DNA from: Bremia lactucae
Lineage: Eukaryota; Oomycota; Peronosporomycetes; Peronosporales; Peronosporaceae
DNA: 64,000 nt
Direction of reading: 5' to 3'
Assembly: GCF_004359215.1 (NCBI RefSeq)
Contig: NC_090611.1
Location: 360,902-424,901, forward strand
The translations under genes were made by a program, and so were the position numbers. The notes beneath the pieces are model-generated. The model did no database searches, was not told the DNA's origin, and saw nothing but the letters and a program-made list of their open reading frames with translations. Positions 10,377 to 58,500 of the stretch are shown in pieces (position 1 is the stretch's first letter; each line of letters opens with the position of its first letter).

Positions 10377-12990
10377 GCCCAAACTTGTGCACCCTGACCA
10401 AAAAGCTTTTGTGAAAGGACGGTCAATGCACCAGCACGTTCGGTTTCTATCGGATCTACAGAACCTTATTACAAAGTGGGACACAGATGGATATGCTGTT
10501 TTTCTCGATTTTGAAAAGGCGTATGACCGGGTTAATTGGCATTTCATGTTCAAGATTCTCGACAGGATGGGTTGTGGTGGACAGTTCTTACGTTGGGTGA
10601 AGCTCCTGTATACCCGACCTGTAGCGCGTCTCCTGATCAATGGTCATGTACAAGAGGCCATTCACCCCACACGTGGTGTCAAACAAGGCGATCCACTTTC
10701 AGCATTGTTATTTCTTCTAGTAATAGAACCGCTTGGAAACCTGCTTCGGCAACATGATGAACATGGAATCTGCCTTACAGACGACTTCACGGTTACCAGT
10801 GTTTTTTTTGCAGATGATTCGACGCTTCTCAGTAATTCGAGTGCTGGAGTCCAAGCACAGCTTAGACTCGTGGATGAATTCTGCCAAGGGTCAGGTGCGA
10901 AGCTTAACAGGACCAAGTGCGTGTTGATGAGCCTCAACCGGTCGCGGGTCGCGCCTTCCATGGATGACCTACAGCCACTGGGTTTCGATGACACGGTGAA
11001 ATACCTTGGTATTCTCTTTGGCCAGCGCAATACCAGTGATGATATTATCAGTTTTCTTGACCAGCGTTTCTATGATGGTTTTAAAATGTGGCATCGTCGA
11101 GCGCGTACGATTGATGGACGCCTTCTACTCGCGCAGACTATGGTGTTGTCGCGCCTTTGGCACTACACCATGCACGTCGTCGTTCCCGATCGCCTACTGA
11201 AACAATGGCAAGCCGCTCTACATCGCTTTGTGCTCGGTAGAAAGTATGAACGCGGTGAGAGGTACTTTCAACTGGTACCGAATGAATTCCTGCACAAACG
11301 TCGAGATAAAGGCGGACTCCAGCTCCCCAACATCAGCGACCTAGTGCAGCGGCAACGTATACAAACGCTTTTACGGTTTGTAAACGATGCTAACCCAATA
11401 ACCTGCAATTGGACCACGCCGGGGCTTCGACTCATTGCCGGTTTCTTTCCAGACTGGGGACCACAAAGTCCGCTCGATTTCTTGACGGTAAATCCCCGGC
11501 GCCACGGCTTCGATCTCAACTGGACCAGCCTACCGACGTGGTGGCGCATTACTTGGCGCAATTGGTTTGAACTCCGATGGCCAGTGACTTGGCATGACAT
11601 CGCACACGCCACAAGACTCGAGTACGCGATGCAAGAGCCGATCTGGTTTCACGGGGATCCGATCTTTCAGTACGAACCTAAGTCGCGAGTTCCTGGCCAA
11701 CTCACTTCCCGCCGCAGTTTGTGCATGGTGGCAGAGCCACAGCGTAGTTTCCGTCGTCACATGGCACGTGCGTTTCGAATACGTGCCCTTGCCGACGTGC
11801 TTGATGGTGACGGTCATTGGCCTTCTGAAACAAATTTTGCAGAGACTCACATTGACTACAGCTATGCTGCGGTCCACCCGTACAAGCAGTTCCGGTGGCT
11901 CAAGACTCTCTATCGTGAACTACTGCAAGTGTTTCTTAGGATTGCGACCTTATGCGGAACACCTGTGAATAGTGCGATTTCACGTACGTCAAGGATTTCT
12001 GCACCCTATGTGGGTGTACTAGTCAACGGCCGGGTACACGTCGCACCTGATGTTTCCCGCTTGGCACTTCTACATTTAATTCAGAAACCAAGTACACACA
12101 TCAGACCCCACCCGATTACGTTACACGACAACAGACCATCCGACGGGGAAGTAACGCGATTTATACAATTGCGCAAACGACTTCGACAGCTACTTCTACC
12201 AATTTTTGATGACCTACAATTTCGTGTGGCCTTCCGATTGCTTCCAGTTCGCTCTCGTTTCTCTTTCCTGTCGGTGACAGATCCCGACATTATATACTGT
12301 CCGAAAGACGGTTGTGCTTTGGTCGAGACTGAACGCCATTTGTTTTTCGAATGCACTTTGGCTGCTGCTCTGTGGACGTGCATTAGCCATGATTGGAAAG
12401 TTTTTTTCCGGAAAAAACCGAGCTGGTATGCTATCGCTCTCGGGCGTCCGCCGTGTCTCTTTGACAAGTGGGCGACCGATCGATCCGGAATCGAGGACAT
12501 GTGGCATATCCTACGTTCTGTTACTCTTCACCTGCTATGGACTGAACGCAACAGTCGAATTTTCAATAAAAGTCGACCGATGCCACCCATTCCGGCTTTG
12601 CGGGTGATTTACACCACTTTCAGTGCCCATATTCGCGCCTGCTTTCGCCGAAATTATGATGATCTACAACAAACTTCGCTTCGCCGGCTGCTACATGAGC
12701 TCAAGCGAACTCCGTCTTTAGGAGGGTTTATGCAGCAAAATGCTACGCTCTTTCAAGTCCGATTTCTGGATTAACAGCTGTCTTACTGTACTGCCGAAAA
12801 AAAAAAGCTTACATATTGACGCCTTGCATCCCAGCCCATGCAAGTATTAACACACTCGATGTCCAACAATGCCCAACACACCTTTGTTCGTCGTCAAGAT
12901 CGAAACACTGTATTTTAAAATTATTTAGACGAGGTAAATAAGAAGTGGTCGTATTATTAATAATATTTTAATACAGACACCCTAACACAC
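10377..12990 (+). mobile_element. Non-LTR retrotransposon (LINE), 5'-truncated
   Basis: This is a 2.6-kb insertion bounded by a perfect 16-bp target duplication inside LTR-A. It contains one long reading frame that starts within the reverse transcriptase, followed by about 215 bp of 3' untranslated sequence without a poly(A) tail. 5' truncation is the usual outcome of LINE insertion, and the endonuclease domain is missing. Confidence 0.9.
10387..12774 (+). CDS. LINE reverse transcriptase (partial, 5' truncated)
   Basis: This is a 795-residue uninterrupted frame. It opens directly in the RT domain with QKAFVKGRSMHQHVRFLSDL and the catalytic-aspartate block FLDFEKAYDRVNW. It goes on with GVKQGDPLSALLFLLVIEPL and the active-site block VFFADDST, where the pair of aspartates is present. 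Downstream is the long C-terminal region of L1/Tad-type LINEs, with a zinc-finger-like stretch (CPKDGC through ERHLFFEC, about residues 639-660). The GTG at 10387 is not a natural start; the true N-terminus and the apurinic endonuclease were lost. The absence of any stop in 2.4 kb suggests a recent insertion. No functional protein is expected without the 5' part and promoter. Confidence 0.88.
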   Translation: MHPDQKAFVKGRSMHQHVRFLSDLQNLITKWDTDGYAVFLDFEKAYDRVNWHFMFKILDRMGCGGQFLRWVKLLYTRPVARLLINGHVQEAIHPTRGVKQGDPLSALLFLLVIEPLGNLLRQHDEHGICLTDDFTVTSVFFADDSTLLSNSSAGVQAQLRLVDEFCQGSGAKLNRTKCVLMSLNRSRVAPSMDDLQPLGFDDTVKYLGILFGQRNTSDDIISFLDQRFYDGFKMWHRRARTIDGRLLLAQTMVLSRLWHYTMHVVVPDRLLKQWQAALHRFVLGRKYERGERYFQLVPNEFLHKRRDKGGLQLPNISDLVQRQRIQTLLRFVNDANPITCNWTTPGLRLIAGFFPDWGPQSPLDFLTVNPRRHGFDLNWTSLPTWWRITWRNWFELRWPVTWHDIAHATRLEYAMQEPIWFHGDPIFQYEPKSRVPGQLTSRRSLCMVAEPQRSFRRHMARAFRIRALADVLDGDGHWPSETNFAETHIDYSYAAVHPYKQFRWLKTLYRELLQVFLRIATLCGTPVNSAISRTSRISAPYVGVLVNGRVHVAPDVSRLALLHLIQKPSTHIRPHPITLHDNRPSDGEVTRFIQLRKRLRQLLLPIFDDLQFRVAFRLLPVRSRFSFLSVTDPDIIYCPKDGCALVETERHLFFECTLAAALWTCISHDWKVFFRKKPSWYAIALGRPPCLFDKWATDRSGIEDMWHILRSVTLHLLWTERNSRIFNKSRPMPPIPALRVIYTTFSAHIRACFRRNYDDLQQTSLRRLLHELKRTPSLGGFMQQNATLFQVRFLD

Positions 12991-13702: not shown

Positions 13703-14227
13703 TTACTGCTTTGGGAAACGATTCTTAAGTAAGTTTTCAACTTCATCATTCGGGGTCTTATTTTTGACAGTTCGAAGTATAAGCTGTTGCCGAAGCGTAT
13801 CACGCACTTTTGCACGATAACTCTTAGGTTGGTCATTAGATCTGGCTATCAGCGCATTTGTCAGGCCAACTTCACTTAATTGAAGCTCTTTCATTAAATC
13901 GTCCAAATAAATCACTTTAAATTTTGAGTTAGAAGCAAGCCACGTTTCGAATTTTTCCGAGGCGACATCATCATGTTTGCCTGCGTTGTTAGCATTCTTA
14001 AGTGAATGAGACGGCGTCTTGGTTGATCCCATTTCCTGTAGAAAGCCTTTCAAGCGGCTCAAAACTCGTTCCTCATCGTAATTAGCAATTGATTTATCCG
14101 ACGGCACCCGCAGCCTCGTGACGAATTTGGTGCCCTCATTATAAGTGGTCAGTTCGTCCGCCGTGCTCGCCAACGTGTTCGTGATAGAAATTGCAGCAGC
14201 AAGCAGCGCGAAGTGACAGACGCGCAT
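13703..14227 (-). CDS. Secreted effector candidate, RXLR-variant with EER motif
   Basis: This is an intronless 174-residue protein. The ATG at 14227 gives a clean signal peptide (MRVCHFALLAAAISITNTLA, cleavage about 20-22); a longer in-frame start at 14245 would add six residues. Instead of a canonical RXLR the region at 37-41 reads TRLRV, followed at 51-54 by DEER. This spacing from the signal peptide is what RXLR-dEER effectors of Peronosporales show, and degenerate RXLR with intact EER is known from downy mildews. The C-terminal 100 residues are hydrophilic and helical, with an isolated Trp (FETWL) that could belong to a WY-type fold, which I cannot confirm. Delivery into plant cells is inferred from the family; the target is unknown. 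It lies alone between transposon remnants, the usual setting of oomycete effectors. Confidence 0.7.
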   Translation of the reverse strand: MRVCHFALLAAAISITNTLASTADELTTYNEGTKFVTRLRVPSDKSIANYDEERVLSRLKGFLQEMGSTKTPSHSLKNANNAGKHDDVASEKFETWLASNSKFKVIYLDDLMKELQLSEVGLTNALIARSNDQPKSYRAKVRDTLRQQLILRTVKNKTPNDEVENLLKNRFPKQ

Positions 14228-15115
14228 GGTAATGCTTAATGGCATATGCGCAGACTTGGATTTGTTGCAGGGCCGTACAAGGGAATAAGGAAATAGTGGC
14301 CAATCGAGAGACCGACCGTAAAGGTGTTGGAACTTTGCGAATAAAAAGACACCATGTCCGGCCTTTACACACATTCTGGCACCCATCATCTTTTTGCACT
14401 TTATCCCTATAAGATAGATTGTGTATTAGATGCAATTAACGTTAAAATCCCATTTTTAAAAAAGTCAAGGAACTCAATATATTCAGCTTGCAGTGTCTAT
14501 CCATAGAGCCAGTTTCCTGATGCAACAATATTTGGGCTGGTTTTTCCCTTGTGTGTGCAGCAAAGACATACGTGTCGTTAAAAAAGTTGCACGATTAGCG
14601 AACGTCGCCTCGACTAACGATGAATACCTTCCAATATTACTTTCTCGCACTTTTCATTCAATAATTATTTTCCTCTTACTGCGACAGTATTGTAATTATC
14701 AGCGTGTATTGCACAAGCCTTTTATTGGTATAAATACAATGCCATTGGCAGCAAGTATTCTTTTGAAATGGAGCTGGATCACGAGAACGAGGAAGTGCTT
14801 TTGGAGAAGGTACCGCATCAAGTCCCTGGAGCGCAGCGCCGTGGTCGAAAAGACTTTTTTTTTGCAATGGCATTTGCTGCTAACTGCGCAATCATCGTCT
14901 TTCTCGCGGTACAATCCCCTTAATTGTCCAATAATTGCGCACGTAGACTTCGTAATCGTATTATTGCTTACTCGGTCGTAATTTTGAAAAAAACAAAAAC
15001 AGTTTGGGGTCGGAATTCCCAACGTTTCGAGTCTTTATTTTACTGCGCACAATAAAGACAAGTCTACACATGGCTTCATATTTTCTTAATCTTTTTTTAC
15101 GAGTTGCATTGGCAG
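14228..15115. other. Gene-free stretch upstream of the effector
   Basis: No supported gene. The first few hundred bases should contain the promoter of the effector gene (reading leftward), but I do not recognise a defined element. Confidence 0.4.
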
Positions 15116-16937: not shown

Positions 16938-17374
16938 TGTAACGGGGCACTACTGAATTGTACTGCCTCAGTACAAGTCCACTTCGCACTGCCTCAGTGC
17001 GAGTGGTGCCTCACGTCACTTCACGTACACTAGTACGTGCAGAGGAAGACTCTGTTTAAACACTTGCTTAAAGAGGGTTAGTTCAAATCTGCATTAATAT
17101 AATAAAGGTTTTCTGTTCTATCTACTTTATACTAACCTAATTATAAACTAATACCAAACATGTTATATAGAATAATCTATCTTTCTCTTTGCGCGCGTCC
17201 AGCGCTGACTGGATCGCAAAAAAAGTGGATTTAATGATCTATATCTACCAATATAATGGCTTGTAGAATATTACCATGTAAAGTATTATTCTCCAAATAT
17301 CATCTATCTTTTTGATAATATATTAATTAACAACCTTTAAGTGTCAACTTCATGTAACGATACACCCCGTTACA
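16938..17374 (-). repeat. LTR-A, complete (3' LTR of the left inverted chromovirus)
   Basis: This 437-bp LTR starts TGTAACGGGGCACTAC on the plus strand and ends CGATACACCCCGTTACA. Read in the pol direction its tip is a small palindrome, TGTAACG/CGTTACA around GGGTGTAT. The adjacent bases 17375-17390, read on the minus strand, are the purine tract AAGGGAGGGGTGA, the polypurine primer of plus-strand DNA synthesis. Pol on the minus strand therefore ends here. Confidence 0.85.
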
Positions 17375-17491
17375 TCACCCCTCCCTTAAACTACAATCAC
17401 TCTGACTTTCATTGAATAGAGTTGTCACTTTAAGACCACTTAATTATAACCGATATTGATTGGTCAGAACCATCATTTTTAATTATATCTT

Positions 17492-19189
17492 ATGGTTAAC
17501 AAGTCCATGCGATATGCGAGTAGTGCGGCGCTTCCGGCTGCGGTTCATGCAGCCGCGGGGGACCCATTATTGTCTCTAGCGGCAGACGTTGCGTCTGCTG
17601 TTGTATCGTCTTCTCCCGCAACTATAAATGTTGCGGGTGCACGTGGTGAGTCACCACGTGAATGCCCCCCCCCCCTTTGGAGGTCGACTACGAATGCGAG
17701 TCGGACGAAATGGCCGACTCGGGGAGAACAGAGCAGTCGCCTGATCATCGTCAGGCGGTTGACTATGAGCCTTCGAATGTGGGGGCTCATTCGAGTAGAC
17801 GTGCTGGTGGCATTCGCCACAGCATGTTCGGTTCCGACGATGAAGATGATTCCTCATCGCCAGCACCGTCTCCCGTGCCGTCCACCGTACATATTTCGTG
17901 CGTGGTGATGACGATGGCGTAAGCCATCGTAATTAAAGTTCTTGTGGTTCCCCTGCTTCAGTGGGTACCACTCAGGGGACCGTAGACAATAAAATGTCTC
18001 GTCTTGCCCCTAAGAATCCGTGGCTTTTGTCTAGTACAGCTGATTAATAGCTTGTCCTGAGAGACTACTCCTCACAATAAATATCCCTTGTGACAAAGCT
18101 TCATGGTCTTGATCCCAGCGCGAAGAACTCTCGCGCTGACGAAGATTTTTATCTCGATGCTTTTTTTAAGCATCGATGGTATAGTGGCAACAATAAACGA
18201 GATAAAATCTCGTTGATGCAACCTGGAGCGCGTCCATAGCAATGTCAAAGACATTGGATGCGAAGCCTGGCTTCAAAGACTTAAAGAAATTCGCGTTAAG
18301 TTTGAGAAACGAACTCCAACCGGTGCAAGGTATAAATTGCATCGGTTGTCACGTGAGGCAGGACTTCCATACCTCACATGGGGTGATCCCGGTCCGTGTT
18401 GTGTTGACAACACGAAGCGAGTCAAAGGGGATGTCTATTCCCTTTCTTTGCCCTGGGAAAGGGCTCGCATCTCTATTGAGATTTGCGTTGTAATTGACGT
18501 TTTGCAATCGATTTACATGCGCCAGGAGCGCGTGTTTTTCGATGGAACTTTTTTGGACCTTCTGATCTATCGGATGGGTCTCGTCATACTAACGGACGAG
18601 GCCCTCAACGTCAACAACCAGCTCGTAACGAGGCTCATAGCTGTCATGGGATGGTGGATAACCGCGCCAGCGAACAAGATAACTCGTTCGCTGCCCCTTC
18701 ACATCACAGTGGTTTTGAATACGTTCCACAAGGAAACATTGACCACCTAGGACTTCACCAATGGTTGTGACGGAGGGGGGAAATTCAGATCCGACCCGAT
18801 GTGTCAGATCTAGAGTCGAAAATCGACAAACTCAATCATCTCCTCCATGATTTGGAGGAGGGACTTGATTACGAGGGCGGTAAGCGTCGTTAGCTGGGGC
18901 AGACGGTGCAGGCTCACCATATCGAACGGTTGAAAGACCGTTCGAAGAGTGCGTACTCCATGTTGGAGTACGAACAGAAATATCACGCTCTTCGTGATGA
19001 GCTATCTACCGCTCATCGCGGTTTCGAGGATCTTCGGATCCGGCATGAGAATCTCCAGATATTCAACATGAGAATCTGGCTCGTGACCACAAGAATCTTT
19101 TAAAGATTTTTGAAAAGGGTGGTCAGATCCGTCCTCGGAAGAAACTGCGTACTGATGGAACGGGCGGAGCCGACCAACGTAAAACGTAG
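17492..19189 (+). pseudogene. Antisense accessory ORF of left chromovirus (coiled-coil protein, broken)
   Basis: On the strand opposite pol, one protein can be followed through several frameshifts and stops. The N-terminus at 17492 (MVNKSMRYASSAALPAAVHA) is Ala-rich, then acidic (SMFGSDDEDDSSS near 17825). Next come RLAPKNPWLL (18000-18029), DEDFYLDAFFKH (about 18137-18172) and GCEAWLQRL with FEKRTPTGARYKLH (18258-18338). A charged coiled coil follows (about 18800-19070: ESKIDKLNHLLHDLEEG, YEQKYHALRDELSTAH), and the C-terminus is RKKLRTDGTGG ending at TAG 19187-19189. The same motifs occur in divergent copies at 41316-43386 and 57065-58500. A poly-C run near 17668 is one frameshift point. The 3' half is antisense to the pol chromodomain and integrase spacer. 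Function is unknown; a Gag-like or nucleic-acid-binding role is only a guess. Confidence 0.65.
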
Positions 19190-20781
19190 GATGCGTTTGC
19201 ATCCTATGTGGCAATTCTATGGTGTACGCATTGCCTCTGCGATGCAGTACACAGAAAGGCCCAATGAACTTGGGTAGTCGTTTACTGCTACCCACATTAG
19301 TGGCTACACGCTAAGGTAAGTTTACCTTAGAGAGTAGTACTAGGTCATACATGGAAGAGCAAATGTTCGTCCATGTTTGTCTGCATTCCGGTTCTGACGG
19401 TCCACTGCGTTAGCAATTGAATCCTGTACGAAACGGACAACTGATTCTCGAGCCAGCAGAAATTTCTCTGCCGACTCATTTGTTTTGTCTTTTTGAGTGC
19501 GCTTTGTGTGCACTGCCATGAGATCATTCTCATCTTCGATATCGATAGCTTCGCCAACGACATCATTCACGTCGTTAGTAACTTCGACGCGTGATGAGCA
19601 TGAGCCAGAAATAAATGTGCTCATGCGAGTCTTCCCCCTCCCCTTAAACTAGAGGATCCCTTTAATTGGGTGGATATGCGTAGATGGCGTAAGCCATTCA
19701 CAATGAATGGTGTATGCGTGGCAGACGCAAGCACCGAATATTGATGAAGAATTCGACCATCGTCAAAAACTCGCTCCGATCCGAATACGATTGGACGTAA
19801 TCTCGAATTATCTCTCCGAAGACGCGATTTACGCGTTCCGTCTGATCATCTATCTTTACATGTTCAGAAGTTGACATAGTCAGCCTTGTTCCGAGAGATC
19901 GGAACACGGATTGCCAAAACTTAGCCGTAAATCGTTTATCTCTACCCGAGATCAGTTCACGGGGTAACCCGTGGAGCTTAAAAACCGTGGTGATAAAAAC
20001 GCGGGCACAGCTTGGAGCCGTGATCGACTCTGGTACTGCAGCAAGATATACCATCTTGCTGAAGCTGTCTAAAAAAACAAGGATTCCATTGTTTTTGTGA
20101 TCGTCTACGGGAAATCCGAACACGAAGTCCATAGATACGGACTACCAACATTCTGCTGGAAGTGTTAGAGGTCGGAGAGGTGCACGGGATGAAGGGCTAG
20201 GATTCACCCGTTGACATACCTCGCAAGCACGAATGTACTTGCGCACGAATGTACTTGCGCACGAACTGATACTGGCGGGGCCAGTCAAAGTCGCAACTTA
20301 CTGTGAGATAAGTTTTCTCACGTCCACGATGCCCACTTGTTGGTGCATCGTGACACTCATACATGATGCGCAAGCGCAAATCATTGTGAGTTGGGACGAC
20401 GACACGTGGAGTGTCGCCGGCAACGGCTGTGTAATTAAATAAGCCATTGCGTGTTGTGATCGATCGGATGACGATCGATATAAAGCCGGTAAATCTTTAT
20501 ACAGATTTATCGGATGGATTCAGCAGATCATCTATTAAACGCAGAAGGTCCTTATATTCTTAGTAGACTTCCCTTATGTCATTAAACAAGGCTGCTGACG
20601 GAACACTTGAAATGAGTGTTGCAACGGTGGGATTATTTTCACTGTTTGAATGCGCAGCCAGCTCGAAATCGGGTCGGCGTGATAACGCATCAGCTACGAC
20701 ATTTAGTCGTCCTAGTTTATATTCCATGGATAAAAAATACTTTCCGAAGAAGGATAGCCATCTCGCCATTCTTTGCGATAG
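18573..20781 (-). pseudogene. Chromovirus pol 3' half (RNase H, integrase, chromodomain), left copy
   Basis: Read on the minus strand: the RNase H end with EYKLGRLNVVADALSRRPDF (about 20560-20769); the integrase zinc-binding block with CHDAPTSGHRGREKTYL (20197-20379); the integrase core with MDFVFGFPVDDHKNNG, VFLDSFSKMVYLA and LHGLPRELISGRDKRF (19698-20132); the GPY/F-type module with PFCVLHRRGNAYTIELP and VGRLRPFHQY (about 19140-19295); and a chromodomain at about 18573-18750. Several frameshifts and stops break it. The 5' part (gag, protease, RT) lies in the gap or is missing. Chromodomains direct integration to marked chromatin in this Ty3/gypsy clade. Confidence 0.82.
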
Positions 20782-21476
20782 NNNNNNNNNNNNNNNNNNN
20801 NNNNNNNNNNNNNNNNNNNNNNNNNNNNNNNNNNNNNNNNNNNNNNNNNNNNNNNNNNNNNNNNNNNNNNNNNNNNNNNNNNNNNNNNNNNNNNNNNNNN
20901 NNNNNNNNNNNNNNNNNNNNNNNNNNNNNNNNNNNNNNNNNNNNNNNNNNNNNNNNNNNNNNNNNNNNNNNNNNNNNNNNNNNNNNNNNNNNNNNNNNNN
21001 NNNNNNNNNNNNNNNNNNNNNNNNNNNNNNNNNNNNNNNNNNNNNNNNNNNNNNNNNNNNNNNNNNNNNNNNNNNNNNNNNNNNNNNNNNNNNNNNNNNN
21101 NNNNNNNNNNNNNNNNNNNNNNNNNNNNNNNNNNNNNNNNNNNNNNNNNNNNNNNNNNNNNNNNNNNNNNNNNNNNNNNNNNNNNNNNNNNNNNNNNNNN
21201 NNNNNNNNNNNNNNNNNNNNNNNNNNNNNNNNNNNNNNNNNNNNNNNNNNNNNNNNNNNNNNNNNNNNNNNNNNNNNNNNNNNNNNNNNNNNNNNNNNNN
21301 NNNNNNNNNNNNNNNNNNNNNNNNNNNNNNNNNNNNNNNNNNNNNNNNNNNNNNNNNNNNNNNNNNNNNNNNNNNNNNNNNNNNNNNNNNNNNNNNNNNN
21401 NNNNNNNNNNNNNNNNNNNNNNNNNNNNNNNNNNNNNNNNNNNNNNNNNNNNNNNNNNNNNNNNNNNNNNNNNNNN
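20782..21476. other. Assembly gap (695 N)
   Basis: This run of N separates two inverted chromovirus arms. Frames that appear to cross it are artefacts. Confidence 0.99.
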
Positions 21477-22103
21477 TGCCACGTAGGATGCGAACGCATC
21501 CTACGTCTTACGTTGGTCGGCTCCGCCCGTACCATCAGTACGCGGTTTCTTCTGAGGATGGATCTGACCACCCTTTTTCAAAAATCTTTAAAAGATTCTT
21601 TGGTCACGAGCCAGATTCTCATGTTGAATATCTGGAGATTCTCATGCCGGATCCGAAGATCCTCGAAACCGCGATGAGCGGTAGACAGCTCATCACGAAG
21701 AGCGTGATATTTCCGTTCGTACTCCAACATGGAGTACGCACTCTTCGAACGGTCTTACAACCGTTCGATATGGTGAGCCTGCACCGTCTGCCCCAGCTAA
21801 CGACGCCTACCGCCCTCGTAATCAAGCCCCTCCTCCAAATCATGGAGGAGATGATTGAGTTTGTCGATTTTCGACTCTAGATCTGACACATCGGTCGGAT
21901 CTGAATTTCCCCCTTCCGTCACAACCATCGGTGAAGTCCCAGGTGGTGAACGTTTCCTTGTGGAATGTATTCAAAACCACTGTGATGTGAAGGGGCAGCG
22001 AACGAGTTATCTTGTTCGCTGGCGCGGTTATCCACCATCCCATGACAGCTATGAGCCTCGTTACGAGCTGGTTGTTGACGTTGAGGGCCTCGTCCGTTAG
22101 TAT
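21477..22103 (+). pseudogene. Chromovirus integrase end and chromodomain, right inverted copy
   Basis: The plus strand reads the GPY/F end THPTSYVGRLRPYHQYAV from 21485, then a spacer, then a chromodomain at 21943-22100: GERFLVECIQNHC, RTSYLVRWRGYPPSHDSYEP and RYELVVDVEGLVR. The spacer and chromodomain are in overlapping frames, so a frameshift is present. It mirrors the minus-strand copy at 18573-19300. Confidence 0.82.
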
Positions 22104-22966
22104 GACGAGCCCATCCGATGGATCAGAAGGTCCAAAAAGCTCCATCGAAAAACACGCGCCCCTGGCGCATGTAAATCGATTGTAAAACGTCAATTACAAG
22201 CCAGTCTCGATCGAATGCTTGCCCTTGCTCTGGGCGCGCTCGGGGTTGGACATCGCGTTTTACTCGTTTCTTGTTGTCACTATACCATGGATCTTGATCA
22301 CCGCATGGAGATGGAAGTCTTCGTCACGTGAGAGTTGTTGCGCTTTATCTTGACCGTGGAGCTTTGTCACAAGGGATCTTTATTGTTTGGAGTAGTCTCT
22401 CATGCAAGCTTTGACATTGCTATGGACGCGCTCCGGCTTGTATGGGCAGATTTTACGTTTATTGTTGCCACTATACCATCGATCCTTAAAAAAAGCATCG
22501 AGATAAAAATCTTCGTCAGCGCGGGAGTTCTTCGCGCTGGGACATCGTCATCACCACGCACGAAATATGTACGGTGGACGGCACGGGAGACGATGCTGGC
22601 GATGAGGAATCATCTTCATCGTCGGAACCGAACATGCTGTGGCGAATGCCACCAGCACGTCTACTCGAATGAGCCCCCACATTCGAAGGCTCATAGTCAA
22701 CCGCCTGACGATGATCACGCGACTGCTCTGTTCTCCCCGAGTCGGCCATTTCGTCCGACTCGCATTCGTAGCCGACCTCCAAAGGGGGGGGGGCATTCAC
22801 GTGGTGACTCACCACGTGCACCCGCAACATTTATAGTTGCGGGAGAAGACGATACAACGGCAGACGCAACGTCTGCCGCAAGAGACAGTAATGGGTCTCC
22901 CGCGGCTGCATGAACCGCAGCCGGAAGCGCCGCACTACTCGCATATCGCATGGACTTGTTAACCAT
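21490..22966 (-). pseudogene. Antisense accessory ORF of right chromovirus
   Basis: The minus strand repeats the accessory protein of the left copy. It starts at 22966 (MVNKSMRYASSAALPAAVHA), has the acidic SMFGSDDEDDSSS block near 22620, and continues to the coiled coil antisense to 21600-21850. Its poly-C run near 22786 has a different length, giving another frame. Between about 22200 and 22440 it has diverged from or lost part of the left copy, so the two are separate insertions and not a single mirrored sequence. Confidence 0.6.
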
Positions 22967-41315: not shown

Positions 41316-43386
41316 ATGGCGACAAATAAGTTTGTTCCAGTGGCCCCGTGTGGCTGCAAAGCTGGCAGCTGCACAGATCAGTGCAGCTGTTTGTAATGCA
41401 AATGTTTCCGTAGACTGCTGAAGCCATTGCAGGTGACGGTGACAAGTCACCTGCTACACCAATTGGAGGTGACTGGTCCAAGTCACCGTCATCGCCCGAC
41501 TCAGTTGCTACTGCGAAGGCCGCCGGATCACCCGGGGCCGAGTCCGTTAAGCCTTTGAGTTCTAACGTGACTACCAAAGAGGTGATGACAAGGTTGTTTA
41601 ACTCGTCTGACCTTTTTGGGAGGGAGTCATCATCAGATGACTCTATGGGCGACGACCATTCTGGTGGTGTAAGTATGCGTCACCAGGAACGAAGTGGTCG
41701 CGAAGGGAAGAGTGCAGCTGGTGGTGCTTGTTTGCATCACCAGGAAAGGAGTGATTTTAGGGATCGCTCCAAGATCCAAATTAACGTTAACGTTAACATG
41801 AGCCAACAGGAGAGGGACCACAATACGTTGCGGTTCGCTCCTGAAAAAAGGCCTTGGTTGCTCTTTAAGGATAAACTAATTCGTTGGTCTGGTATGACAA
41901 CGGTCGATATCATATTCTGTTATTTGACTCATCCAGGCTTCCCAAGCCTGGTGAGGATGAGACATAATCTTTTATCAGTGTCCTTTTCCGGCATCAGGGA
42001 TAGTTCTTTAAACGGGCAAAGGATGTCAATCCTTTGTTCCAAGCTTTAGCAGCCTTTGTACAGAATGTACAAAACATAGGCTGTAAGGTCTGGCTTGACA
42101 AGCTAAATGCTTTTCGTGAACGGTTTGAGAAACAGACCGTTATCGGTGCACTCTAAAGCTGCATCGTTTGGCCAATTTATTTTTTGCGCAACAAAGGAAT
42201 CAGATGATTGCAACGAGACCTTAATGACTTCAACATCAATTTCCCATTCCAATACTACCCCTACCCAACTGTGCGACCAGCGAGCCCGTCGGAGCCGACC
42301 CGCTGCCCAATACCGCGATCTGAGGTGCATGAATCTTTCCAAGGCGTCAACACACAAACACGTATTTTCGACTTCAACAACGAGGTCGGCGCGCCCTCCC
42401 GTCAACTGCTAGCCCGGATGCCGCCGCCTACATTCGCCGCAAGTGCGCTGACACCCGCCCCGTCCGCCGATGAAGTTTAGACGCTGTTCACCGTGCCGAA
42501 GCCTCTTTAAATCCGAGCATCGACGGGATAGGGTACGACATCTTCAAAAGATTTTTGCCCGAGTCGGAGATTCTTTGCCTCTCGTGGGGTAGACTCATGC
42601 CCATGCTATTTTAAGAGTGCAGGCCATGCCCTTAAGAAGGCATACTCCGTTACAGACCCTCATTGGTGGACACCCTACTCTTGTATGCTGCGGCAAGAGT
42701 TGAGAACCTCCATCCCTTTTCACGAGCGCGGGAAGCGCTCGTTCTTCGATGGACCTTTTGTCGAAGAGGATAGGTCTCGTCGTACCACAAGACGAGACCC
42801 GGAACGTCCAACATCAGTTGGGAACGAGGTTCCCAACGATCATGCGAGGGTAGATACCCTTGGCAACGAATGAGATAACTCGTTCGAACCCCCTTTACCC
42901 CACGGTAATTCGAAAAGCTTTCAACAAGAGAACGTTTCTCACCACCCGAATCCGTTAATGAATGTGGAGGGAGAGGAACATGGGTTCGCCTCGTTTGATG
43001 AATCCAATTCAACATCGCTATTTGGAGCACACCCTTTATTATTTGAGGGAGGATATTGATCACGAGCGATCCCGTCGCCGCGACTTAGCGGTGACGATTG
43101 ATAACGTTTCTTGTGACCAGTTGAGAAACTGTGCGGAGATTTCGACGGATCAACTGGCGAACGAAAGGACACATTAGTCTCTTCAAAACGAGGTGCTGAC
43201 AGCTCGTCAGAAGATGTCTTACTTGGAGGAAAGAGTGGATCGTCTGGTTTAAGAAAATCAGACTTTGGTCCGAGACAATAAGGCTTTGGCTCGGAGCCAT
43301 CAGGCTTTGACGGATGCCTTAAACCCTTCCGGTGTAATCCGGATCGGAAGAAGCCTCGTACTGATGGTACGGGCAGAGACGCCTAA
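41316..43386 (+). pseudogene. Antisense accessory ORF of chromovirus 2
   Basis: Opposite to pol, the plus strand encodes a broken protein parallel to the one at 17492-19189. The start MATNKFVPVA at 41316 is followed by an Ala-rich and then Ser/Asp/Pro-rich acidic region. Next are SSDLFGRESSSDDSMGDD (about 41598-41650), RFAPEKRPWLLFKDKL (41831-41878), GCKVWLDKL with FEKQTVIGA (about 42080-42155), DNSFEPPLPHG (42874 on) and a coiled coil (43000-43310: LQNEVLTARQKMSYLEERVD, ENQTLVRDNKALARSHQAL). The end RKKPRTDGTG precedes TAA at 43384-43386. Part of the frame (about 42650-43386) is antisense to the chromodomain and integrase end. The N-terminal half lies outside pol. No known domain is recognised. 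Confidence 0.68.
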
Positions 43387-46300
43387 CATAAGACGTAGGA
43401 TTCGTAAGCAGACTACGAGGCAGCTCGATCGTGTACGCAATGCCTTGGCGATGTAGTACATGAAAGGGGCCGGTATACCATGGCAGTAATTTATTACTGC
43501 CTTCATTTGCCACACATGTTTTGGTAGGTTTACCATAGACAGTTGGACTAGTTCATAGACATTATATGATAGCGGTTTGCTCTTAAATTTTTGTCAGATT
43601 TTCGTTTCTGTAGGTCCACCGCATCAGCAATGAAATTCAGTACAAAACGTACCACTGCTTCTCTAGCCATCAGGAAATCATCTGCTGAATCGGTTTTATT
43701 TTTGAATTTCAGTGCGACCGGCTCGCACTGCGGAGATATGAATCTCTTTATTTTTGAGAGTATTATCGTTCTCATTAATAATATTGTTTTCGAAGCGGAT
43801 CGGTATCGTTATTAACATCAGGATTGGCATTACTGTCCTTACTGAGTTTGTCCACTTCAATGCTCATTAAATCAACATTTTTATCCTTCGCATTAACCTT
43901 GGTGCTAATCCGTGATGAGCAAGAGCTTGAAGGTTCTTTGCTCGAGCGGGTTCCTACCCCCTTGAATAAGAGTCACTCTCAAACAAGGTGGGTATACGTG
44001 GGTGGCGTTAGCCATTCACAAAAAATGGTTCATGCTTTGTAGAAGCATGCACTCATTTTTATAAAACAGAACTATTCAAAGTTAGCCAGTCGGTGATCAT
44101 TGTACCATTGGCAAGAACTCGCTCTAACTCTTAAAAAGAAGTGAACGTATCCGCGAAATATCTATTCAAGAATACGGTTTGCCAAGTCCGTCTAACTATC
44201 TGTTTCAGGATGATCAAAAGGTGACATTCTCAACTGTGTTCTAAGTGATTTGAACACAGTTTGCCATAATTTCGCCGGGGATCTAGGGTCTCGATCTGAG
44301 ACCAGCTCGCGAGGTAGCCCATGGAGTCGAAATATTGTGTCAACAAAGACACGAGCACAGCGTTCGGCTGTAATCAACTCCGATACTGCAACAATATGTA
44401 ATATTTTGCTGAAACGATCAACAAAAAACAAGAATACCATAATTCTTGTGATCGTCGTCGTGAAATCCGAAGACGAAGTCCATGGGTATGGACTACCGAC
44501 ACGCTGCCGGAACAGGCAGAGGTTGCAACGGAGCACGGGATGATGCGCTGGGCTTCACGCGTTGACACACTTCGCAAGTACGTATGTACTTGCGGACGAA
44601 TTCATACTGGCGTGGCCAGTGGAAGTCGCGACTTATCGTGAGACAGGTATATTCACGTCCACGATGACCACTTATTGGTGCATCGTGGCACTCATACTTG
44701 AAGCGTAAACACAAATCATATTGGGTGGAAATGACGACACGAAGTGTGTCGCTAGAAATGACTGTGTCACAATAACCATTGCGTGCTGTGTATCGATCTG
44801 TTGCGGATCTATACAATTTCGACAATCATTTTTAAGATTGTTTGAATGTAATTCTTAGGTAATTCATCAACCCTATACGAGCCTTACCATTATGATAAGC
44901 TCTAACGTCGTCGAGTAATGTTGACGACGGAACACTTATGGTTGCAACAGTAGCTTTATGCTCACTGTTGATTAGCGCAGCCGGCTCAATATCAGGCCGG
45001 CGCAAAAAGGCATCAGCGACGGCGTTAAGTCGCCCTGATTTATACTCCACGTAGAGGTTATACTCCGCCAAGGAAAAACAACCATCTCACCATTTCTTTG
45101 CGAGAGGAGTGCACTGTTTACGGCCGTGCGTAAAAACACAGCGTATAACGGGCTAAAGTTGCTTTAATGTTACACAGTCCCCGTTAAGTGAACTTGGTGT
45201 ACTTAAGGGAATGGTCAATTACTGAAATAAAGTAATTAGACCCATAACTCGGGTGTGGTTTTCATTTGTGACCAATTCTTGGGTATGTGATGCACATAGG
45301 TGTATTCACATTAGGAGGGATGACGCATAGCGTCATCCGTTCGCGAGGTATCTAGAAAGATACGCTCGCAATACATATTAATGTTATCTACAGAGATGAC
45401 ATTTTTGATTGGTAAAAACAGGTATTTTTTGAATGCGTTTAATTATAAATCAGTCTGAAAAATTACTTTCTACTTAGTAAGTGCGAACGAGGAGCCGAAT
45501 TACCGCTCCCGTGACGACGCTTTCGTAGAGAACTTCGTGCGTTGGGTGAGGTCGCTGAAGCGCTCACCACAAGTACCTCACTGCACACAAGAGCAGCCAG
45601 TCGGATTGCTTCCTCGCCGTCTAGGGTGTGTGTCTAAGTAGAGGGTAACCGCATTAAGACGTGCCGGCCTACACAGGGTCCGTATATACAATGAACGGTC
45701 TATCTCCCAAGAGACCCAAGAGATAGACCCTAAACTTAGCAAGAGCGTATATATGGCAAGGAGTCCCATGTCGTGCACAATTTATCGTGTTCAGCTGGTT
45801 GAAGCTGGAGCGATTGATAACAGACGACGCGCTCTGCGACGTCTGTTTCATATTGCAATCGGCTGCAATCGCCAAGATTGGCGATTGCATCAAACTTTGC
45901 TTGATACCTCCAAATTAACGCTGACAATCCGCGTTTCATGACCACTTTATTTTTTTCTTCAACATAAAAGAATGATGTACTATCATTTCGGCGTAATCGC
46001 GTGAGTACTTGCCAGGTACGCCGCTAAGCCAAAGAACTTTCTTAGTCCATTTATATCGACTGGCGCAGCCATTCGGTGATTGCCTTGATCCTTTTTTTGG
46101 CGGTTACGGGCGTACACATGGCTTACCCGCAATGCACCCAAGAAGTGGTATTTCGCTTGCAACGAATATCCACTTTTTGAGATTTGCATACAATTTGTGA
46201 TTAGGAATTATTGTGAGACCCTTTTGGGCATAGGTGGGATGTACTTTAACGTCCGACTTTCCGTTCATGTCTCTGTACGAACATATGCATCATCAAAGTA

Positions 46301-47250
46301 ACTAGGTGCGTAATCCCGCACCGATGCTAACAGATTGGTTACACATCTATTAAATGTCGCAGGGGCATTACTTAGTCCCTGTGGCATTACCATCCATATC
46401 CAGAGCATCCCAATGGGAGCGATCACTGCTCTGTATAGGATGTCGCGTTCAAAGGTAATGACCTGATAAAATTCGTCCATTATATCGATAGACGAAAAGA
46501 TGGTACTCTCAGACATACCATCTCCGATTACATGTTTTCTAGGTATCGGCGTTTGGGCCGGTACCGTTGCAGCATTCGGTTTATCGAATGCGTGCACTGT
46601 CCGCCAACCTCATGTCGCCTTTCGCACACAGAAGGTCGGAGAGCGATGTGGAGACGCTGACTCCCTCACCTGGCCCGCTTTGAATCGATCGATAAAGAAT
46701 TTATCGATCGCATGTACTTGTTCACGAGGCAGTGGCCATTGCTTCATGACACAGTACTTCAAGCCCCATTTGAGCTCGATCTCATATCGAGTGCCTTTAT
46801 CCTTAAATAACTCGCACGTAACTGCTTCAGGGAATACATCCTTTAATTCAATCAAATCCTCGTATAAACGATTAGTCTTAAGTGACTCCTAGGATTGAGT
46901 AGTATATCTCTTAATCCGAGACTTCATATCGAGGACACTTTCGTCCATCAATGAGCTGCTGAGAACCCGTTCATTCTCAAGAAATACTATTGCCGACCGA
47001 ATATCGGCCACGTAGTTGTCATCTGTGACAAGTACGCAGATCAGCTTGACTTTGCTACTACGCAGAATCACGCAAAAACCGTTTCGATTTAAAAGTTGGC
47101 AATTGAGTTATTTTCGTAGTTAACTTCGGAGGCGCTATTAGATCAAGTGTATAAGTGCATACACTTGATCGATTGTGTACCAAGACATTTATTGTCTCAG
47201 TTTCCTCTTTAGATCTTATTTCCAAATGTACTTGAGAACCGTTGACCACA
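42650..47250 (-). pseudogene. Chromovirus 2 pol (protease region to chromodomain)
   Basis: In minus-strand order: a degenerate protease/linker (46889-47249); RT with YEIELKWGLKYCVMKQWPLP, FSSIDIMDEFYQV, MPQGLSNAPATFNR and the YFDD-type catalytic block (46265-46855); RNase H split by a solo LTR (GDRPFIVYTDP at 45669 and VEYKSGRLNAVADAFLRRPD at 44832-45071); the integrase zinc module (44580-44825), core (44192-44540) and GPY/F module (43319-43513); and the chromodomain at about 42800-42955 (RTSYLIRCQGYLPSHDRWEP). Many stops and frameshifts show it is dead. The expected gag and 5' LTR are not found to its right, where another element starts. Confidence 0.83.
45144..45673 (+). repeat. Solo LTR-B inside RNase H of chromovirus 2
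   Basis: The 530 bp start TATAACGGGCTAAAGTTGC (first TG mutated) and end GTGCCGGCCTACA. They match the copy at 15351-15891 throughout. The 5-bp flanks CAGCG and CAGGG are a target duplication with one mismatch. RNase H coding resumes on either side. Confidence 0.82.
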
Positions 47251-57080: not shown

Positions 57081-58500
57081 CATTAGTAGACGCTCAGGTG
57101 TCTACTGCGGGAAGCAACTCGCCTCCATCTGCGACAGGAGGTGACATGTACGGGTCGGCGTCATCGTCCGACCCGGTGGCAACTTTAGAGGTCTCCGGTT
57201 CTCCCGGGGCCCAATCCGCCAAAGCTATTGTTCCGGCACGACACTCAAAGAGTTGTTCGTGACGTTGTATAAGTCGTCTGATCTTCTTGTTGTGTTGTTG
57301 TGGAGTCATCTTGAGATAACTCCATTAATAATGACAATTCCAGTGATGTAACCTTGTATTACTAGGTATGAAGTGATCGTAAAGATCACTTCGAGAGCAC
57401 TCTTCGCACCAATGCTAACATTAGTTAAAGGGCGAGGGGCCACAATATATATATTCGCTGCGATTTGCTACCGAAAAGCAATTCTGGTTGTCTTCTAAAG
57501 GCAACTTATGTTGTTATATTGGTATGGAAAATGTGCGTTGAAAAACACTGTTCGGCTCATCCAAGCTTTAAAAACCTGGTGCAGACGAAAACGAGTTCTT
57601 TATCGATGCCTTGTTTCGGCACTGATCTAAATTATCGATGGCACACTGGCAAGCGTGATAAGGATGTAACTTCTTTATTTCAAGCTTAGGAAACATTCAT
57701 ATAGAATGTGCAAAGCGCATTGACAAACTGGATATTTTCTCTGACCGAATAGTTCAACGGTCCGAAGTCGGTGCACGCTATAATCTGCATATTTGTTTAG
57801 AGAGGCAGGTTTACCTTGCTTCTCGTGGGGGCCCTGTCTAGGCTGCTTATTGGGTGCAATCCATGTCCCTAGGGAGGCGTGCTTCCTGAAATACCCTCAT
57901 TGGAGGACGTGCATCTCTTCTGAGATGCGCGAAGGGATTTCTGACTTAAAATCCTTTTACGAGCGCGCGAAGTGCTCGTCTTTCGATGGACTTCGACCTA
58001 TAGGATGGGTCTCGTCATACTGTTGGACGAGGCCCGGAACGTCTGTCATTAATTGGGAGCAAGGTTTCGAACTATCATTCCGGGGATGTATCCTCGCCAT
58101 CGAACGAGATAACTCGTTCGGACCCGCTTCACCTCGCAGTGGTTCAAAAAATGTTCAACTAAAAAGCGCTTGTCACCATCCGAGTCCTTTAATGGATATG
58201 GAGGATAAATCGGGTTCGACTGACTCGTTGGACCCGACTATTAATTAACATGTCGCATCTTCCGGCACTTGCGGGAGGACGTTGATCATAAACATCCCCG
58301 TGCGGATTTAATCCTTATGATGACGCTAGAATTTTTTTGATGTAAAATTTTATTCAGTTGCTATCCTTATTATTATTTTTGATTAGAAGCTGTGTTTGTT
58401 TTTCCTTGGGGCGCATCAAACCCTTCACGACGAGCTAGCGACAGCTCGTCATGAGATTACATCCTAGAAGGATGAAGTGAAACGTCTGGTTTGAAACTTT
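57065..58500 (+). pseudogene. Antisense accessory ORF, chromovirus 4 fragment
   Basis: The plus strand starts in NANTLVDAQVSTAGSNSPPS and SSSDPVATLEVSGSPGAQSA, matching NANVSVD and SPDSVATAKAAGSPGAESV of the copy at 41.4 kb. It continues with RFATEKQFWLS (57461-57493), DENEFFIDALFRH (about 57590-57625), RSEVGARYNLH (57763-57795), DNSFGPASPRSGSKNV and HHPSPLMDMEDKSGS (58108-58215), and a coiled-coil piece HDELATARHEITS (about 58420). Frameshifts and stops are numerous. The LTR and the 5' portion of pol are missing. Confidence 0.62.

Follow-up and report, generated by a model that had tools for sequence, protein, structure and literature searches.

We analyzed a window of 64,000 nt from Bremia lactucae (NC_090611.1:360,902-424,901, from an assembly of 116 Mb in 220 contigs), in which Ty3/Gypsy elements with a chromodomain carry a long reading frame on the strand opposite pol. 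The frame would represent a third gene of these elements, read from just inside the 3' long terminal repeat (LTR) backwards into pol. We found that this antisense gene is almost certainly real and under selection and that, where it overlaps pol, structured regions of either gene are paired with loose regions of the other.

The copy under study, copy 1a, comprises the 3' end of a minus-strand Gypsy element. Its 3' LTR (16938..17374, minus strand, 437 bp), read from the sequence, has the inverted termini TGTAACGGGG/CCCCGTTACA, and stretches resembling this LTR are present elsewhere in the window. A polypurine tract, also read from the sequence, adjoins it at 17375..17389 (purine-rich strand minus) and thereby fixes the direction of the element. 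Pfam matched the integrase zinc-binding domain at 20200..20496 (minus strand; Integrase_H2C2, 2.2e-12) and the integrase core at 19701..20141 (minus strand; rve, 6.8e-08). The chromodomain at the 3' end of pol (18556..18715, minus strand) is readable in one frame with a stop directly after it, and Pfam Chromo was matched in the homologous copies L050, L072 and L081. An initial annotation of this DNA had taken the frame to be antisense to the element; LTR and polypurine tract, the integrase domains and the chromodomain on the minus strand all bear this out. Its label of chromovirus rests on domain order and fits the order reverse transcriptase (RT), RNase H, integrase, chromodomain; with gag in front, this order was recovered from pieces of broken copies, in which protease was not matched; several copies have long stretches of N within pol.

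The antisense open reading frame (ORF) of copy 1a spans 17492..19189 on the plus strand, with its stop codon at 19187-19189. It was traced by motifs and by tblastn with the antisense protein P0001, whose numbering is used for all antisense residues. The annotation had described a long ORF here; a homologous frame is indeed present, but it is not open in the window. Read in a single frame the stretch contains 28 stops, and tblastn with P0001 placed the homologous pieces in three frames (17507-17677, 17671-18546, 18555-19061 and 19049-19186). Between the polypurine tract and the antisense ATG lies a leader (17390..17491, plus strand), a candidate antisense promoter. Downstream follow, all on the plus strand, the stretch coding for a helical core (18000..18546, P0001 residues ~165-350, from AlphaFold and dN/dS, the ratio of nonsynonymous to synonymous substitution rates), the stretch around the chromodomain (18555..18797), predicted to be disordered from low pLDDT (predicted local distance difference test) and examined by dN/dS over residues 351-415, the coiled coil opposite the pol linker (18798..19117, residues 431-536, from the predicted helix and dN/dS) and a basic C-terminal tail, RKKLRTDGTG...RKT plus stop (19118..19189; sequence and dN/dS).

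Antisense proteins of ~490-600 residues begin with a disordered acidic serine-rich N-terminus. The helical core comes next and contains the conserved sequence CLSWGDPCPCC; a disordered linker joins it to a coiled coil of ~100 residues, and the basic tail ends the protein. AlphaFold modeled the core with a pLDDT of 83.5 and a predicted template modeling score (pTM) of 0.78. Residues 349-427 are predicted to be disordered (pLDDT <50), and residues 431-536 form one long helix of coiled-coil type (pLDDT ~96), in agreement with the C-terminal coiled coil of the initial annotation.

Selection on the antisense frame

Seventy copies matched by P0001, namely 69 loci and the window copy, were examined; they were chosen for a good match and do not represent a share of all elements. 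A stop-free match of at least 340 residues in one frame was found in 13 of the 70. In L050 such a match covers residues 1-556, although one piece within the coil is locally shifted. From stop to stop the frames of L050 and L051 measure 608 and 607 codons, that of L051 departing from the protein frame after residue 443. In L078 and L079 the frame runs uninterrupted from residue ~140 onward. One copy, L081, has both strands open over the overlap, with 367 codons in the antisense frame and 314 in the pol frame. The remaining copies are interrupted by stops or frame changes inside the protein or end at unmatched sequence. L077 represents a separate family (47% identity to its nearest relatives) that repeats the arrangement of LTR, polypurine tract and start codon and has one internal stop.

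We calculated dN/dS for 69 copies from pairwise codons by the Nei-Gojobori method with codon bootstrap. Values are given for three divergence bins, the most diverged last. Repeat loci (L001-L004, L009, L032, L038) and pol-side stretches (L072-L076) were left out, and pairs outside the bins or with too few shared codons were dropped. The antisense core and coil are under purifying selection of a strength like that of integrase: values were 0.39 (limits 0.30-0.50), 0.50 and 0.52 for the core (166-350), 0.48, 0.48 and 0.54 for the coil part (416-559), and 0.43, 0.55 and 0.65 for the integrase core (43 copies where mapped). The N-terminal part gave 0.60, 0.62 and 0.80, and the last 39 antisense codons had the lowest value among 14 windows (0.37). 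When each copy was counted once, in disjoint pairs, the proportion of synonymous differences (pS) was generally above that of nonsynonymous ones (pN). This held for the core in 33 of 34 pairs and for the N-terminus in 26 of 27; the coil followed with 23 of 25 and the stretch facing the chromodomain with 22 of 30.

The frame might be a by-product of pol conservation or base composition, given that the strand opposite a conserved gene frequently contains open frames. We compared dN/dS between the frames of the core and found 0.52 for the antisense frame versus 0.94-1.04 in four of the other five (0.56 versus 0.89-0.97 in disjoint pairs). The fifth frame was also low (0.65; 0.67 in disjoint pairs), as a by-product might lead one to expect. 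It shares wobble positions with the antisense frame, however, differs from the pol phase and is not open, with 2.8 stops per 100 codons in the core and 2.8-7.7 across four regions. Moreover, the pol frame opposite the coil is itself weakly or not constrained. The initial annotation had set a dN/dS check beforehand and held that conservation of pol could not be the cause: the core, at 0.39-0.52, is not near 1, and windows wholly outside pol (residues 161-320) are constrained as strongly (0.50-0.55). Because low dN/dS persists outside pol, a shadow of pol is refuted; together with the frame comparison this led us to reject chance or a pol shadow, to which we attach almost no weight. The interpretation as a conserved antisense gene is supported by dN/dS, by long open frames in single copies and by whole proteins in relatives.

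Structured parts of each gene lie opposite loose parts of the other

The geometry of the overlap was read from L081 (reverse strand, 668-1609). In pol numbering, the integrase SH3 domain occupies residues 50-92 and the chromodomain 233-283; the linker between them (pol 93-232, ~140 residues) lies opposite the coil and its ends. On the antisense side the chromodomain faces residues 358-408 and the pol linker residues 408-549. The pol frame ends opposite antisense residue 327. The first four antisense motifs had been said to lie outside pol, which holds for the motifs themselves, whereas in L081 the pol frame intrudes ~20 residues into the core.

Constraint is divided accordingly between the strands. 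Pol residues 76-200, mostly linker, gave dN/dS values of 1.26, 1.01 and 0.76 opposite the antisense coil with its 0.48-0.54, and the chromodomain part of pol (201-275) gave 0.45, 0.46 and 0.54 opposite an antisense stretch (351-415) with 0.77, 0.79 and 0.70. AlphaFold, which is blind to the overlap, predicted disorder for the antisense stretch facing the chromodomain and one long helix for that facing the pol linker.

Homologues were found beyond Bremia. Protein searches with the antisense protein returned 111, 107 and 97 matches in three runs; the named matches came only from Hyaloperonospora arabidopsidis, Peronospora effusa and P. matthiolae, and the other matches were on ENA contigs. An ENA contig protein is the nearest relative, followed by downy mildew proteins. 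Predicted homologues in P. effusa and P. matthiolae include examples of 593 and 529 amino acids, and P. matthiolae has two clusters of 1335 and 524 member sequences. The H. arabidopsidis homologue P0006 (463 amino acids) is cut short and ends where the coil begins; in one source, UniRef, it bears the name of a tyrosine-recombinase core-binding domain, and it gave no Pfam match and no usable fold match. In an alignment of nine proteins, 37-55% identical to P0001, 45 columns are invariant, and the core (residues 167-350) accounts for 39 of these.

If the overlap is shared, antisense residues must permit codons whose reverse strand spells the chromodomain. We scored this imprint at 18 positions in the pol phase in nine further proteins (8 distinct segments), four of them named and originating from H. 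arabidopsidis, P. effusa and P. matthiolae. All nine permitted 16-18 of the 18 residues at the best place. When the P0001 segment was randomly mutated to equal distance, means were 6.0-12.0 and the observed value was reached in 0 of 5000 trials per protein. For six proteins we also scored the second-best place, which gave 10-12, and one other antisense phase, which did not exceed 7. Judging from the proteins, Hyaloperonospora and Peronospora elements therefore very likely share the antisense overlap with the chromodomain.

Overlapping antisense genes for which selection has been shown on both strands are rare, and the claims are often contested. Here, two-strand selection can be measured across dozens of copies of a single genome and checked in other genera. 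A broader interpretation would have the antisense gene interlocked with the integrase gene, under two-strand selection that predates the split of the downy mildew genera, and encoding a new fold that controls element expression or escapes silencing. We consider this tentative, with chances somewhat below even. If true, the pol linker would owe its length to the antisense coil and not to a role in integrase.

A putative accessory protein and its counterparts in other elements

We wondered how such a gene might be expressed and what its product might do. In 46 aligned copies, two leader blocks before the ATG are 0.90-0.93 identical and blocks upstream 0.85-0.88; blocks at the LTR end and the polypurine tract are equally high (0.93-0.94). 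The leader in the window contains TGATTGGTCAG and CATCATTTTT shortly before the antisense ATG, which we take to recall a CCAAT box and an oomycete initiator. A promoter located between the 3' LTR and the ATG may give rise to an antisense transcript. Its protein product could then dimerize via its coil and enter the nucleus, given that PRKKPRTD in the basic tail looks like a nuclear localization signal, and would there serve the element as an accessory factor, most likely by controlling element transcription or silencing. Regulation of this kind has been proposed for the antisense proteins of the plant elements Grande and Retand, and HBZ of human T-cell leukemia virus type 1 (HTLV-1) acts in this way. 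By this architecture and analogy, we assign a probability of roughly 55% to a separately expressed, dimeric, nuclear accessory protein with a regulatory role.

The interlock with the chromodomain, the coiled coil and the basic tail would also suit a role in the particle or in integration, with the protein as a coiled-coil partner of Gag or integrase that aids nuclear import of the cDNA or tethering to chromatin. Separate antisense expression would, however, be expected to give poor stoichiometry for a structural part, and no likeness to a known tether was found in the searches made, so that we regard this role as unlikely. VANC proteins of plant VANDAL transposons are counter-silencing factors. 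A comparable factor, expressed from a promoter that stays active when the 5' LTR is silenced, would agree with a leader of its own with a conserved block and with the very high copy number in P. matthiolae (clusters 1335 and 524). No match to a chromatin family above the cut-off was found and the role is supported by analogy, which makes it a little less probable again than a part in the particle.

The antisense RNA itself could be the functional product, forming double-stranded RNA with the sense transcript and feeding small-RNA self-limitation. Overlap with pol makes double-stranded RNA likely, a possibility discussed for plant elements in excerpts of PMC7264820, and LTR elements of Phytophthora infestans are matched by small RNAs from both strands (PMC3522703, excerpts). 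Yet an RNA product predicts neither an amino-acid constraint of 0.4-0.5 nor a folded core kept across genera, and we think it improbable as the sole explanation. An RNA effect alongside the antisense protein is possible by analogy, because of these P. infestans small RNAs.

Several observations weigh against the regulatory accessory protein that we favor, or against parts of the evidence behind it. A stop-free match in one frame to nearly the whole protein is present in only 1 of 70 copies, and pooled dN/dS is raised by decay that follows insertion. For the N-terminal third the signal is less clear than for the core (0.60/0.62/0.80, and 0.70 versus 0.74-0.98 in other frames for disjoint pairs). 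Opposite the chromodomain the frame contrast is slight (0.73 versus 0.77-0.86, disjoint pairs) and in two of the three bins the limits of dN/dS extend to ~1. The pol linker is not entirely unconstrained, as its value in the most diverged bin shows (0.76, limits 0.64-0.92). Nuclear entry is argued from the basic motif, a loose pattern found in 48 of 70 proteins of at least 480 amino acids. Finally, the core has no sequence or fold relative in the searches made, and for this reason the regulatory role is argued from architecture and analogy.

Known families gave little further guidance. TRP28 (Transposase_28, PF04195) was absent from the Pfam matches of P0001 up to an E-value of 5, and for nine proteins it was neither among the 25 families listed of 28 nor among the matches up to 0.1. 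A genome search with PF04195 gave no signal in any control genome and is hence uninformative. Kinship with TRP28 at the sequence level was rejected, as there is no PF04195 among the Pfam matches listed. Coiled-coil chains gave weak matches, no basic leucine zipper (bZIP) family was among the Pfam families listed, and the basic cluster stands after the coil, not before it.

Grande, RIRE2 and Retand belong to the Tat lineage. Antisense extra ORFs termed aORF-3R are described for maize Grande (gene23), rice RIRE2 and Silene Retand in excerpts of PMC7264820 and PMC11963269. As in the oomycete element, these are long ORFs antisense to gag-pol beside the 3' LTR, found across copies and species, whose function is given there as not known. 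The Grande protein is reported in these excerpts to be nuclear, as the basic tail would suggest here. In contrast, Retand is described there as a non-chromovirus with a long region between pol and LTR, and its ORFs mostly encode TRP28 (PF04195). The oomycete element differs from Retand in having a chromodomain, an overlap of about two fifths of the ORF with pol and no TRP28 among the matches listed. Its ORF is antisense to gag-pol and adjoins the 3' LTR, as does that of the second family L077, and it is conserved like other element proteins in many copies and several species (69 copies; two further genera).

An antisense gene, brtn, was reportedly noted in Boty-like elements by Zhao et al. in 2011. 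According to excerpts of PMC7264820 and PMC8365987, Boty-like elements of Botrytis cinerea carry brtn. Like the oomycete case, Boty is a Gypsy element from outside the plants whose antisense gene sits between pol and the 3' LTR; it is fungal, and brtn is likened here by its description in these excerpts, not by sequence.

Chronos elements in Peronosporales are, in excerpts of PMC5348765, oomycete Gypsy elements with a chromodomain after integrase and dual RNase H. The element described here shares the position of the chromodomain. Unlike Chronos, with its Gypsy RNH and aRNH as given in these excerpts, L075 has one RNase H match and then integrase. In this broken copy RT_RNaseH is followed by a Pfam-unmatched piece containing the end of RNase H (by eye) and then by Integrase_H2C2, with ~95 residues between. 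In the second element of the window ~98 residues are left before integrase, the RNase H end again being recognized by eye, and copy 1a lacks the junction region of RNase H and integrase in the window. Chronos was rejected as the element class since dual RNase H is missing from one copy (L075) and one window element.

HBZ of HTLV-1 is a bZIP factor, and its gene is not known to extend across integrase. The antisense promoter of HTLV lies in the 3' LTR (PMC7264820, excerpts). HBZ and the oomycete protein, likened by description, share an antisense position at the 3' end, a C-terminal coiled coil, predicted in the oomycete case, and, by analogy, the role of a nuclear regulator; the two traits of HBZ named above set it apart, and in the oomycete protein the basic cluster follows the coil.

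The initial annotation had known of no description for oomycetes while pointing to plant elements. The plant precedents were confirmed in the literature, and no description of an oomycete antisense Gypsy gene was found in the literature searched, which was covered by titles and passages with subscription journals largely outside it. The word 'antisense' is absent from the text of PMC5348765, the main paper on oomycete retroelements, and of PMC6570648, the Bremia genome paper. Antisense genes by the 3' LTR are thus already known in plant and fungal Gypsy elements, while the oomycete case with a chromodomain and a division of constraint between two strands appears new within that coverage. Taken with the plant and fungal cases, the oomycete gene suggests that Gypsy elements have repeatedly arrived at an antisense gene beside the 3' LTR. 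Gypsy elements make up 53.3 of 91 Mb of assembled Bremia sequence (PMC6570648, excerpts). As they account for much of downy mildew genomes, a protein governing such elements would bear on genome expansion in crop pathogens.

Related copies and other features of the window

Motifs listed in the initial annotation were read back at 11 of 11 positions. Copy 1a carries RLAPKNPWLL (18000), DEDFYLDAFFKH (18137), GCEAWLQRL..FEKRTP (18258), GARYKLH (18318) and RKKLRTDGTG (19138). A second element (chromovirus 2) has RFAPEKRPWLL (41831), GCKVWLDKL..FEKQTV (42080) and RKKPRTDGTG (43346), and a third (chromovirus 4) has the diverged RFATEKQFWLS (57461), DENEFFIDALFRH (57590) and GARYNLH (57775). Tblastn with P0001 and relatives confirmed the same motif order in copy 1a (17507-19186, plus strand), copy 1b (22951-21504, minus strand) and the elements at 41-43 kb and 57-58 kb, the last two being diverged fragments.

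The antisense ORF of copy 1b is inverted and broken (21504..22951, minus strand, tblastn pieces), with 89% DNA identity to copy 1a. At 19213-21504 two 3' ends of elements of the same family are oriented toward each other on either side of a run of N (20782-21476), in an arrangement that resembles a junction made by inversion or deletion. In the second element the antisense ORF (41423..43395, plus strand) is broken and diverged; it was traced by tblastn with P0001, P0010, P0017, P0019 and P0043 (25-47% identity by piece) and by motifs and tail. Pfam placed its pol at 42653..46609 (minus strand), with RT (46268-46609, RVT_1) and the integrase zinc-binding domain (44496-44825, Integrase_H2C2) over the cut-off, and the integrase core (44195-44554, rve, 30.1 bits versus 32.6) and chromodomain (42653-43084, Chromo, 18.0 bits versus 25.1) under it. 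The third element retains an antisense remnant (57458..58209, plus strand), recognized by tblastn with P0017 and P0019 and by motifs.

Among the homologues, P0105, P0168 and P0179 of H. arabidopsidis are named 'RxLR effector candidate protein' in UniRef and match the antisense transposon protein; going by this sequence match, the names are therefore probably misannotations. These three proteins, together with the 'uncharacterized' P. matthiolae proteins of the clusters of 1335 and 524, would be explained as transposon products. Elsewhere in the window, an ORF at 13706-14389 (minus strand) has a signal-peptide-like start followed by TRLR and DEER and resembles a candidate RxLR-type secreted protein. 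A further ORF of 798 amino acids (10378-12771, plus strand) reads like the reverse transcriptase of a long interspersed nuclear element (LINE).
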